DNA from: a virus
Direction: 5' to 3' (one strand)
DNA: 55,085 nt
IMG/VR virus record: IMGVR_UViG_3300021185_000718
Coordinates: 1 to 55,085 of that record
The position numbers and the translations under genes were made by a program. Below the pieces are notes generated by a model. It was not told where the DNA came from, ran no database searches, and saw only the letters and a program-made list of their open reading frames with translations. Within the stretch, counting starts at the first letter, position 1, and the number at the start of each line of letters is the position of its first letter. This document shows, one piece after another, positions 12,332 to 55,085 of this stretch.

Positions 12332-13022
12332 CTATTTTAGGAAACAGAGCATCTGCACAAAACTCATCAACATCAGCTTCAGGTAATCCTAAAGACTTCA
12401 TTGTACGTGGCGTATGTGGGTTTTGTTGCTGGTTATGACAGTAATAGTTCTGTGCTCCAGCGGTAAGTTCAATATTAGCATTGCCTGTATACTGAGGAAC
12501 ACTTTCAAACCATGTTCTTAAGTTATCTACTGCTAGGTCGCATATTGCAGTAGCTTCTTCTACTGTGTTTACATTACCAGCGGCAATCATACTTGGACTA
12601 AAAATATTACGAGCCCATTCAGGTAGTTCACGTTTCTTACTTGGAATAAAGTCTGCAACTGCATCTTGATACCAATCAACTAACGGATGGTCTTCTCCAC
12701 CACTACTTGCACTAAAGTCATGGAAAGCACCTGTCATCTTGTTCTTACCTGCAATAACATCAAAGCCGTATATAGGAGCATCGTTAGTTAGTGTAGGAAA
12801 ACAACATACATGCATCATCCATAAGCCTTTGCTATCACGTACATCAACTACATCAATGTGAGCTCTGCGTACATGCGGATTAGCCCATACTTTATTAAGC
12901 CATCCATTCTCTGGTTGGTGAAATTTGTTTAGTGTTTTTTCTTCTTTCTCAACTGCAAACTCATCAAAAATACCAAGTATACGATCCTGTGTTTCAATTA
13001 GTTTATTCCATATTACGCTCAT
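12327..13022 (-). CDS. pcyX: Ferredoxin-dependent bilin reductase, PcyA/PcyX type
   Basis: Expected to reduce biliverdin IXalpha with electrons from ferredoxin. The 231-aa protein follows PcyA through its whole length: RRAHIDVVDV, MMHVCCFP, APIYGFDVIAG, ELPEWARNIFS and NYYCHNQQQNP. Compared with Synechocystis PcyA, His74, His88 and Asp105 correspond to His55, His71 and Asp88 here, while Glu76, which acts in reducing the exo-vinyl group, is replaced by Asp57. Oceanic-virus PcyX enzymes are known to make phycoerythrobilin; this protein is inferred to be one. The start overlaps the halogenase stop by 4 nt, and heme oxygenase is two genes upstream, giving heme -> biliverdin -> bilin. Confidence 0.9.
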   Translation of the reverse strand: MSVIWNKLIETQDRILGIFDEFAVEKEEKTLNKFHQPENGWLNKVWANPHVRRAHIDVVDVRDSKGLWMMHVCCFPTLTNDAPIYGFDVIAGKNKMTGAFHDFSASSGGEDHPLVDWYQDAVADFIPSKKRELPEWARNIFSPSMIAAGNVNTVEEATAICDLAVDNLRTWFESVPQYTGNANIELTAGAQNYYCHNQQQNPHTPRTMKSLGLPEADVDEFCADALFPKIV

Positions 13023-14512
13023 CTATTACTCCACTCTCTGTTAGATATACCTGGCATTGATTCCCTTAATTCAACTTCGTGCATACTTTTAATTATGTCA
13101 ATTGCGTTTTGTTTTTTAATTTTTGGTGTTGCTGGATTAATGCCTGTAGCATGTAGCCATAACTTCCAGTTAGTTTCTGCAAATATTTCCGTGTTACGTG
13201 GAAAGAACTGCGATTCGTCTAGTGTTGGGGTATACGTTCTTGCATACCCTGTTGCCAATTCTTCTAGCTTAGGTGTTTCTTTAAAGTTTTCGTAAACGTG
13301 TTTCCAAAACTTACCTTGTCTTGGATTATTAAAGTAGTGCAATGCTACAAAGTTCATGCTATCTTCGTATACTGTTTCAATGTCGTTATTATAACCATCT
13401 ACATCTTCTTGTGTAAAATGTCCTTTTTGTAAACATCTAAGTCCAGTAGCACCAATGATTAGTAATGCAAGTCCTGTACTTTCTAATGGCTCAATAAATC
13501 CACTAGCAAGTCCTACACTAAAACAATTACCTCTCCAATTCTTTCTATTATACTTAGGCTCAAACGGTATGTGGTTAAACTTACCTGTACGTAGTCTATG
13601 TTCTCCCCAATGTTGTACAAAGTGATCTTCTGCTTCTTGTTTAGTTGTTAGGTCACTGTTGTAACATAGCCCACTACCTATTCTATCTCTAACAGGAGTT
13701 TTCCATATCCAACCTAGGTCAGTTGCTTGTGCAGTAACATAAGGTACTTGTGGTTCGTCATCTGTTTCGTAATCAATTTGACTTGCAACCGCGGCATTAG
13801 TAAACAGCATATGACTTCTGTCAACCCAGTCTGCACCTGGTATTGCGTTTGATAATAGTTTCTTAAATCCTGTACAGTCAACAAAGAAGTCAGCAACAAG
13901 TTCTTGTCCATCTTCTAATATAACTTTTTCAACTTGACATTTATTAATTACAGGCTTACTAATATGTTTTTTAATGTGTGTTAGTTTAGTATACTTTTTG
14001 TTTAGATATTCTGATAAGAAGTTTGCAAGTTTGATAGCATCTAAATGATATCCTACATGAGCGTTGCCGCCTTTAACACTTGTGTTCTCTGGAACAACGT
14101 TGTTTGTAATACAAGTGTTGTACCATGACATGTACGTTTCCATATCAGTTTGTGTAGCACCAGCATCAAGAGCTAAGTTTACAATGTCGCCCATGTGTCC
14201 TTCGTCACTAGTACCTACTGGAAAATAAAACGGTTGCCAAATATTTGTATTGTCGCCTTTCCAATTAGGAAAGTATGTTCCGCATTTAATAGTTGCGTCT
14301 GATGCCTTGGTCCATAACTCCATTGGAATACCACAGTCTTTTAAGTAATGGTCAAAGCCTAGTATAGTTGCTTCACCTACTCCTACTGTCGGAATGTTAG
14401 GACTTTCTACAAGGGTAACGTTTACGTTGGGTAAGTTATATAAAGCATAAGCGGCTGTCATCCAACCTGCTGTGCCACCTCCAACAATACAAATACTTGA
14501 TACGTTAGTCAT
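13019..14512 (-). CDS. Flavin-dependent (tryptophan-type) halogenase
   Basis: Uses FADH2, oxygen and halide to halogenate an aromatic substrate. The 497-aa protein has GGGTAGW (11-17) for FAD, the VGVGEAT segment near 43-49, the catalytic lysine in ATIKCGTYFPNW (Lys76, equivalent to PrnA Lys79), and WIWKTP (268-273) in place of the WxWxIP signature. The C-terminal FVALHYFNNPRQGKFW is also typical. A related viral halogenase (VirX1, cyanophage) is known. Its place between heme oxygenase and bilin reductase, with 4- and 8-nt overlaps, raises the possibility of a tetrapyrrole or indole substrate; this is speculation. Confidence 0.92.
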   Translation of the reverse strand: MTNVSSICIVGGGTAGWMTAAYALYNLPNVNVTLVESPNIPTVGVGEATILGFDHYLKDCGIPMELWTKASDATIKCGTYFPNWKGDNTNIWQPFYFPVGTSDEGHMGDIVNLALDAGATQTDMETYMSWYNTCITNNVVPENTSVKGGNAHVGYHLDAIKLANFLSEYLNKKYTKLTHIKKHISKPVINKCQVEKVILEDGQELVADFFVDCTGFKKLLSNAIPGADWVDRSHMLFTNAAVASQIDYETDDEPQVPYVTAQATDLGWIWKTPVRDRIGSGLCYNSDLTTKQEAEDHFVQHWGEHRLRTGKFNHIPFEPKYNRKNWRGNCFSVGLASGFIEPLESTGLALLIIGATGLRCLQKGHFTQEDVDGYNNDIETVYEDSMNFVALHYFNNPRQGKFWKHVYENFKETPKLEELATGYARTYTPTLDESQFFPRNTEIFAETNWKLWLHATGINPATPKIKKQNAIDIIKSMHEVELRESMPGISNREWSNR

Positions 14513-49122: not shown

Positions 49123-49917
49123 TTATTTTTGTGGGTTTTCTTTTCCGTCTTTGTAGTTTTGTAAATGTTCAATGTAGTTATGAATCAAATGATCTGAAAA
49201 GTTATCTATTTTTCCTTTTTTGATTCCTGTCCACATGCCACGTAATCTATCTTTAATCATTTGCCAACCAGTAGGTCTACGTACATTTCCATAACTGTTT
49301 AGGTAGTGCATAGTTCCGTGATGTTTGAAACCCATAATTGCAAGAGGAACAGTTGTTACTATATCGTTATTGTTCTTCCAACGATGATGGGTAATGCCTA
49401 AACTATCAACGTAACCTTTCCAACCTACTCTTGGTGATCCGTATGTGTAAAGTTCTTCTGGGTTAGGTACTAGCTCAAAGAACATACAACGACTAGCCAT
49501 AATAGTTGCCATTGCCGCTCCTAAACTGTGTCCTGTAAACCACACATCTTTATTTTTATTTTGTGTACGAGTTAAGTCTTCTCTAATAGCTGGCCATAGC
49601 TCGTCTACTTGCCCTTTGAATCCTTTGTGTACTCTACTAACTGTTTCTGCTATAACTGGCAATGCATTGGCATCAGCTTTAATATCAGCATATTGTGTTG
49701 GCTCTGTTCCCCTACAAGCTATAACTAAATCACGTTTATTCATAAAACGGTAAGATTGAGCTCCTTTTACATCGTAGTACTCTACAGTTGTAAAACCTAT
49801 TTTTTTAGCCTGCTTTGTAGCATTGGCTTTATTTAAGTAAGCAATTTGGCTTATTTTTGCAAACAATAAACTTCTTTGCTTGAAGTTCATAGTCATAATC
49901 CCTTGTTCTGGTATCAT
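49123..49917 (-). CDS. Class 3 lipase-like alpha/beta hydrolase
   Basis: The 264-aa protein (start at 49917, or a nearby internal ATG) has the nucleophile elbow WFTGHSLGAAMA, the Asp region NNNDIVTTVPL and C-terminal His in DHLIHNYIEHL, as in class 3 lipases. Upstream is the oxyanion region IACRGTEP. No signal peptide is seen, so it may act in the cytoplasm on host membrane lipids, or reach the membrane through a partner. A late promoter precedes it. Confidence 0.85.
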   Translation of the reverse strand: MIPEQGIMTMNFKQRSLLFAKISQIAYLNKANATKQAKKIGFTTVEYYDVKGAQSYRFMNKRDLVIACRGTEPTQYADIKADANALPVIAETVSRVHKGFKGQVDELWPAIREDLTRTQNKNKDVWFTGHSLGAAMATIMASRCMFFELVPNPEELYTYGSPRVGWKGYVDSLGITHHRWKNNNDIVTTVPLAIMGFKHHGTMHYLNSYGNVRRPTGWQMIKDRLRGMWTGIKKGKIDNFSDHLIHNYIEHLQNYKDGKENPQK

Positions 49918-49979: not shown

Positions 49980-50351
49980 ATGCAGTTAGTTCACAAACAT
50001 GTGATAATTCGAGCGGAAGTTACTAATCCGCCAACAGATGAAACCCTTACAAGTAATGATGTAAAAGCCTTGATAGAAGCAATAGGTATGAAGATCCTAA
50101 TGGGACCATATGCCAAATATTGTAATATGAAAGGTAATAGAGGGTTGACTGTTGCTACTATTATAGAAACTAGTCATGTTATAATACACACATGGGATGA
50201 AACAGATCCTGCTATGATACAACTTGATGTATATACTTGCGGAGTATTTGATCCTAATATAGTATTTGATTGGTTGCAAAAATATAACCCTACCAAGATA
50301 GATTTTAAATACCTTGATAGGGAAAATGGTTTAACAGAAATTAAACTTTAA
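49980..50351 (+). CDS. speD: S-adenosylmethionine decarboxylase-like protein
   Basis: The 123-aa protein has GLTVATIIETSHVIIHTWDE and DVYTCG, the order of bacterial SpeD/SpeH. The cleavage Ser (Ser65) and His66 are present, but the residue before Ser is Thr, where the usual motif is Glu-Ser-His; self-processing to form the pyruvoyl group may therefore differ. If active it would supply decarboxylated SAM for spermidine, useful in condensing phage DNA. Confidence 0.83.
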   Translation: MQLVHKHVIIRAEVTNPPTDETLTSNDVKALIEAIGMKILMGPYAKYCNMKGNRGLTVATIIETSHVIIHTWDETDPAMIQLDVYTCGVFDPNIVFDWLQKYNPTKIDFKYLDRENGLTEIKL

Positions 50352-54660: not shown

Positions 54661-55085
54661 TTAAACGAACTGTTTTCCTATTTCTCTTTCTGCTTCAGTA
54701 GCCATTTCTTTATCCCATTTGTCCAAATGCTTTTTCATAAAGCTATTGAACACTGGTGGTACTAATGCTAATGCAAAGAGTGTGAAGTAACCTACACCTG
54801 TGTTAGGTGCACCTACTTCGTCAAGTTCCCAGAAGTGTGTTTCACCTCTGTCATGATGATCAGCCTGGCGACCAATCTCTATGAAGAACCAGCTTGTGAA
54901 TAATGTTGAGTTATCCCATGAGTGTCTATAGTCTATTGGTTCGCTTTTAACACGAATCAAACCATAGTGTTCTAGATAGTTAAGTGCTTCAAGTTCGAAG
55001 TTTGATATTAACCAAACAAGTCCGATACATGCGACACCTAACCAACCACCTGCAAAGAAGAACAATGCAAGTGTAGGTACACTCA
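54661..55085 (-). CDS. AlkB-like alkane/fatty-acid hydroxylase, N-terminus off the window
   Basis: The frame remains open to the right edge, so only the C-terminal 141 codons are visible. The segment has a membrane helix (GGWLGVACIGLVWLI), then LEALNYLEHYGLIR, the HYG signature of AlkB-type di-iron monooxygenases, HSWDNS and the last histidine box RQADHHDRG (family RHSDHHA-type), followed by a final membrane helix. The first two histidine boxes would lie outside the window. Hydroxylation of alkanes or related lipids is inferred; a fatty-acid desaturase-type activity is the alternative. Confidence 0.82.
   Translation of the reverse strand, partial: SVPTLALFFFAGGWLGVACIGLVWLISNFELEALNYLEHYGLIRVKSEPIDYRHSWDNSTLFTSWFFIEIGRQADHHDRGETHFWELDEVGAPNTGVGYFTLFALALVPPVFNSFMKKHLDKWDKEMATEAEREIGKQFV

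Follow-up and report, generated by a model that had tools for sequence, protein, structure and literature searches.

The right edge of the window, by which we mean the whole 55,085-nucleotide stretch of viral DNA analysed here (IMG/VR record IMGVR_UViG_3300021185_000718), carries part of a gene on the minus strand, read as an open reading frame of 140 amino acids that is open at its 5' end and runs from the end of the window to a stop at 54661. The first-pass annotation had placed an AlkB-like membrane hydroxylase at 54661-55085, and these coordinates are correct, although the strand was not given. The features within the window are as follows:

54661..55083, minus strand: 3' part (140 codons plus stop) of an AlkB/XylM-family membrane di-iron oxygenase gene, recognised from the open reading frame, Pfam and identical contigs
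54958..54981, minus strand: NYLEHYGL box, with Glu (54970-54972) and His (54967-54969) at the positions of the FtAlkB Fe2 ligands E271 and H272
54913..54924, minus strand: HSWD, which is HSWN in most AlkB/XylM rows of the alignment and has Asp in all in-clade rows
54853..54870, minus strand: RQADHH, the last box, with Gln (54865-54867) in the place of the AlkB Fe2 ligand His311

A stretch 100% identical to the 140-residue fragment was found in each of four other contigs (L002-L005), and the DNA of all four is 99.97-100% identical to that of the window over 6420 bases, so that they represent effectively the same virus. Three of them (L002-L004) contain the complete gene of 354 codons, the first 214 of which lie beyond the end of our contig. 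These identical stretches rule out a reading of the gene as chance or artefact, and bacterial contamination of the contigs is ruled out by the presence of T4 gp23 in 9 of 35 viral records together with the matches of the window to ribonucleotide reductase, DNA ligase and endolysin. The full-length protein (L002:5359-6420) contains HELSH and HVYNHH, the two histidine boxes that the first-pass annotation had proposed to seek in the adjoining sequence. Among 81 loci, all four boxes (HEL[SA]H, H[VC]YNHH, NYLEHYG and RQ[AG]DHH) occur in 72 of the 72 whose frames are closed at the 5' end, the other nine being 5'-truncated and set aside. In one viral record (L010/L182, IMGVR_UViG_3300006793_005160), there is an apparent frameshift near the 5' end, the match length not being a multiple of three.

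The 140-residue fragment matches the Pfam family FA_desaturase (E 6e-14) and no family in PHROGs; the full-length protein of 354 residues passes the PF00487 gathering cut-off of 29.7 bits with 99.7 bits and has no family in NCBIfam. Searches of the PDB with the full protein (profile/phmmer) returned the two structures of FtAlkB, 8sbb (E 6e-29) and 8f6t (E 2e-25), with a further pair of FtAlkB matches at E 5e-38 and 2e-37; a third match, to a photosystem I subunit at E 0.34, was taken as chance. An AlphaFold2 model of the protein has a mean pLDDT of 80, falling below 50 at residues 284-288 and 291-304, that is, around the last box, so that the predicted placing of Gln287 is tentative. The model aligns with 8f6t at Z 34.5 over 345 residues, with 24% identity over the structural alignment, and with 8sbb at Z 31.4 (TM-scores of 0.83 and 0.80, respectively, by query length). 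The next rows reach Z 9.9 at most, and mouse SCD1 reaches 3.9; the Ycf2/Orf2971-FtsHi complexes among the VIA-align rows at Z 9-10 were taken to reflect a common helical arrangement. PMC10110569 describes the AlkB fold as different from that of SCD1, and the Z scores of 34.5 and 31.4 to AlkB against 3.9 to SCD1 indicate that the fold of the viral protein is that of AlkB. A grouping with desaturases only, named beforehand as the outcome that would tell against an AlkB-like enzyme, is ruled out by this comparison and by the tree described below, which places the clade beside XylM. The earlier view of a phage-borne homologue of the AlkB-type membrane hydroxylases is thus upheld by the boxes and the fold. 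The protein is probably a di-iron oxygenase of the AlkB/XylM superfamily, integral to the membrane with six helices, and it falls in a separate clade that we refer to as the "QxxHH clade".

The name of the clade reflects its departure from AlkB at one of the iron sites. In FtAlkB, Fe1 is bound by H137, H141, H167, H172 and H314, and Fe2 by H171, H272, H311 and H315 together with E271, according to PMC10113152. The viral protein aligns so as to keep eight of the nine histidines and the glutamate, while H311 is replaced by Gln287 (54865-54867 in the window). The alignment comprises 93 rows (18 viral, 49 bacterial in-clade and 26 others, among them XylM, AlkBs from plasmids and further relatives from Gammaproteobacteria). 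At position 287, all 67 in-clade rows, viral and bacterial alike, have Gln, and all 26 outgroup rows have His. The first-pass annotation had taken NYLEHYGL, HSWD and RQADHH as alkane monooxygenase signatures; the motifs are indeed present, but RQADHH is not canonical, the AlkB box being RHSDHH, and the change of His to Gln removes a ligand of Fe2. The nine histidines of AlkB are called invariant and indispensable in PMC10110569. The clade, with eight histidines and Gln287 in all 67 of its rows, breaks this nine-histidine rule and by that test is not classed as AlkB; the loss of a ligand regarded as indispensable also means that, judged on sequence, the protein might be inactive. Front-end desaturases nevertheless have QxxHH as their usual last box, so that Gln at this position need not mean a dead enzyme. 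The viral protein has this feature of the front-end desaturases in its RQADHH box; no cytochrome b5 domain was found, PF00487 being the sole Pfam match of the 354-residue protein up to E 0.1.

The remodelling goes further in a few bacterial members of the clade. In six rows of SAR86/Woeseiaceae type (bacterial loci L151, L155, L157, L159, L160 and L161), the glutamate ligand of Fe2 is also replaced, by Gly, in addition to Gln for the Fe2 histidine, and this double change suggests a stepwise remodelling of the Fe2 site. It might be argued from such losses that the gene product is a relic, dead as a catalyst or not an oxygenase, that persists in some other role such as effects on the membrane or on superinfection. 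We regard this as improbable, since none of the histidine ligands apart from position 287 varies across 32 diverse rows, the same Gln is the rule in front-end desaturases, and dN/dS is low, at 0.05-0.18 in 10 viral pairs (one of which, with a dS of 1.27, is near saturation). Purifying selection thus acts on the viral copies. In sponge-symbiont and other gammaproteobacterial genomes (L082, L087 and L096), a further AlkB-like paralogue, distant in sequence and with a normal RHADHH box, lies a few kb from the QxxHH gene.

Relatives of the gene are numerous both in viral contigs and in bacterial genomes. A scan of the IMG/VR viral contigs yielded 219 stretches, of which 214 encode relatives, and a scan of bacterial and archaeal genomes yielded 209 stretches with 147 relatives; 80 were retained from each. 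The 80 prokaryotic relatives are 54-72% identical and, by their titles, come nearly all from Gammaproteobacteria, many of them sampled from the sea or as symbionts. Hits stronger than 1e-100 were found in 12 of 369 genomes of a gammaproteobacterial sample, in 3 of 385 genomes in the class of a genome labelled Rhodobiaceae, and in 19 of 25 genomes in one family of small genomes. The QxxHH clade is at home mainly in marine Gammaproteobacteria. Annotated plasmid AlkB and XylM proteins are only 23-34% identical to the viral protein, and the sole matches among annotated phages are a distant alkB1 (34%) in two records named "Acinetobacter phage MD-2021a".

In a tree of 93 rows, built by a quick search with SH-aLRT supports only, the QxxHH clade has a support of 100. 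It does not fall inside the XylM clade and forms a clade of its own with the XylM group as its sister at a support of 91, a relation made unsure by several long outgroup branches. On this tree, XylM rather than AlkB is the nearest characterised enzyme, and the first-pass reading is to that extent not supported as written; where bacterial relatives have a donor gene next to them, it encodes a 2Fe-2S protein and not rubredoxin. The viral copies are nested among bacterial copies, and on both trees it takes three changes to account for the viral rows. A single viral clade was rejected with a p-AU of 0.0009, in a test for which the viral group had been fixed in advance of the tree and which was run on the quick tree with its long outgroup branches. 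More than one capture by marine T4-like phages is shown, at least two and probably three in number.

The neighbourhoods of the 80 bacterial loci were scored for five types of partner gene lying no more than 4 kb downstream in the same orientation. A XylA-like 2Fe-2S/FAD/NAD reductase was present at 12 of the 80 loci and a lone 2Fe-2S ferredoxin at 10, so that 22 have one or the other; a globin gene was found at six. A gene resembling glutathione S-transferase (GST) lies downstream at 26 loci, 13 of which also have a 2Fe-2S partner. None of the five types was found downstream at 45 of the 80 loci, which include close relatives of the viral copies; 16 of the 80 hold less than 2.5 kb on that side. 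Among the 35 viral records, many of them fragments, one has a match to Fer2 (2Fe-2S ferredoxin) and none to rubredoxin, and we infer that the viral enzyme most likely depends on reductants of the host.

These neighbourhoods bear on the proposal that the gene encodes a true alkane 1-monooxygenase, by which the phage would let its host oxidise n-alkanes to alcohols for energy or carbon. All four box positions of AlkB, its fold and the matches to annotated AlkBs noted above speak for alkanes as substrate, but every member examined has Gln in place of the Fe2 histidine, the tree puts XylM closer, and the rubredoxin donor was not found in the 35 viral records. The conserved neighbours of those bacterial copies that were annotated or read also included no recognisable dehydrogenase for alcohols or aldehydes, unlike the situation in annotated plasmid alkB and xylM operons. 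The affinity with XylM and the ligand change do not favour alkane use, and we think it has little chance of being the correct account.

The GST-like neighbours in bacteria make a reactive product plausible, and the enzyme might accordingly oxidise a small methylated or unsaturated compound whose product is taken up by glutathione, in a C1- or epoxide-type route of which the phage would boost one step. Besides the GST-like genes and their 2Fe-2S partners, this is favoured by formate-dehydrogenase-like frames, recognised by eye, upstream of the gene in one group, and by four related loci (L131, L132, L134 and L135) where the QxxHH gene, near genes for DUF447 and 4-HFC-P synthase, has two to four GST-like genes behind it. 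The latter enzyme is known from methanofuran synthesis. The neighbour groups, on the other hand, come from few related genomes, and no full-length GST is recognisable in the viral records: the GST_N_3 matches in 16 of the 35 are to frames of 85-111 amino acids, four of them above the cut-off, that look to us like glutaredoxins instead. We consider a role of this kind rather unlikely. We abandoned a link to furan fatty acids, to which a MerR-type regulator next to some of the bacterial copies had pointed, since the portion of PMC7380195 that we consulted does not make UfaO or UfaD a relative. The viral genomes themselves provide a further set of clues.

The sequence TATAAATA, the core of the T4-type late promoter, lies at most 150 bases upstream of the gene in 12 of 25 dereplicated viral copies, where 1.2 would be expected from Markov shuffles, and has a background of 0.018 per 150 bases in the same loci. 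With a looser set of motifs the count is 33 of 48 against 7.7, some of the 48 having a downstream start that makes them less reliable. In the lineage of the window (L002), the exact TATAAATA is absent from the 150 bases upstream.

Among 25 representative viral loci, each of at least 7 kb, four genome settings can be distinguished: A (11 loci), B (8), C (3) and D (3). Setting A, to which the window is similar, includes genes for 5-aminolevulinate synthase, PRPP synthetase, Lipase_3 and DUF1127 proteins in varying combinations. In setting B, the oxygenase gene lies between the gene for gp23 (major capsid protein) and the tail-tube gene. These two genes are directly adjacent in pelagiphage Mosig, and the tail-tube proteins of setting B are 49-55% identical to that of Mosig, so that setting B represents an insertion at a known junction. 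The gp23 of locus L208 is 82.6% identical to that of Mosig and 76% to that of Methylophilales phage Melnitz. The host signals thus diverge, the gp23 of one setting being near Mosig and Melnitz whereas the bacterial relatives of the oxygenase are mostly gammaproteobacterial. No gp23 was found in the contigs examined from the window's lineage, and of 12 records searched for the terminase family PF03237 two gave a match, neither of them of that lineage. The gene combines residence in a phage genome, a host-like origin and selection, as is asked of auxiliary metabolic genes.

Several other genes of the window's lineage deserve mention. Just past the window (L002:1699-2877) lies a gene for 5-aminolevulinate synthase (TIGR01821, 572 bits), with an adjoining DUF454 gene and two DUF1127 genes further on. 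Within the window are a tryptophan-halogenase family gene at 13019-14512 (phrog_2928), about 30% identical to cyanophage versions, and an S-adenosylmethionine decarboxylase-like gene at 49980-50351 (phrog_3125), possibly for polyamine synthesis. A Lipase_3 (PF01764) family gene lies at 49123-49917 and has a relative in 8 of the 25 representative viral loci.

This lipase gene, the membership of the oxygenase in PF00487, the late promoters and the insertion among virion genes would all suit a lipid-modifying enzyme, an acyl hydroxylase or desaturase-like protein that alters the host membrane in late infection. One pelagiphage scaffold in PMC11480375 also carries a "fatty acid desaturase", which may or may not be a gene of the QxxHH clade. 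Against a lipid substrate, the fold is that of AlkB and not SCD-like, and the bacterial neighbours (GST, globin, ferredoxin reductase and response regulator) look catabolic or protective and not lipid-biosynthetic. Modification of host lipids is in our judgement a doubtful account, though one to be kept in mind.

We consider it likely that the gene, a member of a distinct clade taken up repeatedly by marine T4-like phages, is an auxiliary gene expressed late in infection, and that its product is a di-iron oxygenase of the membrane whose substrate is dissolved there. The enzyme would be made late in infection and seated in the inner membrane of the host, where it would draw electrons from a host 2Fe-2S ferredoxin or reductase, the phage carrying no dedicated partner, and use O2 to oxidise a hydrophobic substrate. 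This could be the acyl chain of a lipid or else a small compound, methylated or resembling a hydrocarbon, that dissolves in the membrane. More tentatively, and with rather less confidence than doubt, we propose that the oxygenases captured time and again by marine T4-like phages form a family not described before, in which the Fe2 site has been remodelled from His to Gln and the bacterial partners are linked to glutathione, and which might serve for late oxidation, with host electrons, of a membrane lipid or a small dissolved compound. If this were true, phages would be driving an oxidation step new to the sea by means of a new type of di-iron active site. If the enzyme is active, membrane oxygenases of this kind would be widespread among phages (one scan of IMG/VR gave 214 stretches encoding relatives) and would add an O2-dependent oxidation step to infected marine bacteria. 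A whole clade with Gln at the place of a structural Fe2 histidine further provides a natural test of which iron ligands of AlkB are truly needed.

Among the CC-licensed PMC papers, we found no description of a viral AlkB of the QxxHH kind, and the closest known systems each share only some of its traits. XylM, the membrane subunit of the xylene monooxygenase of TOL plasmid pWW0, is a membrane di-iron hydroxylase with the same order of boxes and an operon that includes a 2Fe-2S protein gene, as is found beside some bacterial copies of the QxxHH clade; it is about 30% identical to the viral protein and has NYFQHYGL and NHINHH where the latter has NYLEHYGL and RQADHH. FtAlkB shares the fold, eight of nine histidines and the glutamate ligand, but has His311 where the viral protein has Gln; AlkB uses rubredoxin, which was not found in the 35 viral records. 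The fatty acid desaturases of cyanophages (vFAD), which Roitman et al. 2018 reportedly described as phage-borne auxiliary genes in marine viruses, are likewise desaturase-type genes of marine phages, but they were not detected as relatives, the cyanophage records giving no match to the protein at E 1e-5. The marine phage valaS/hemO/FDBR cassettes are the subject of PMC11480375, which deals with tetrapyrrole genes and reports 5-aminolevulinate synthase in marine phages; the lineage of the window likewise has a 5-aminolevulinate synthase, which lies near the oxygenase gene.
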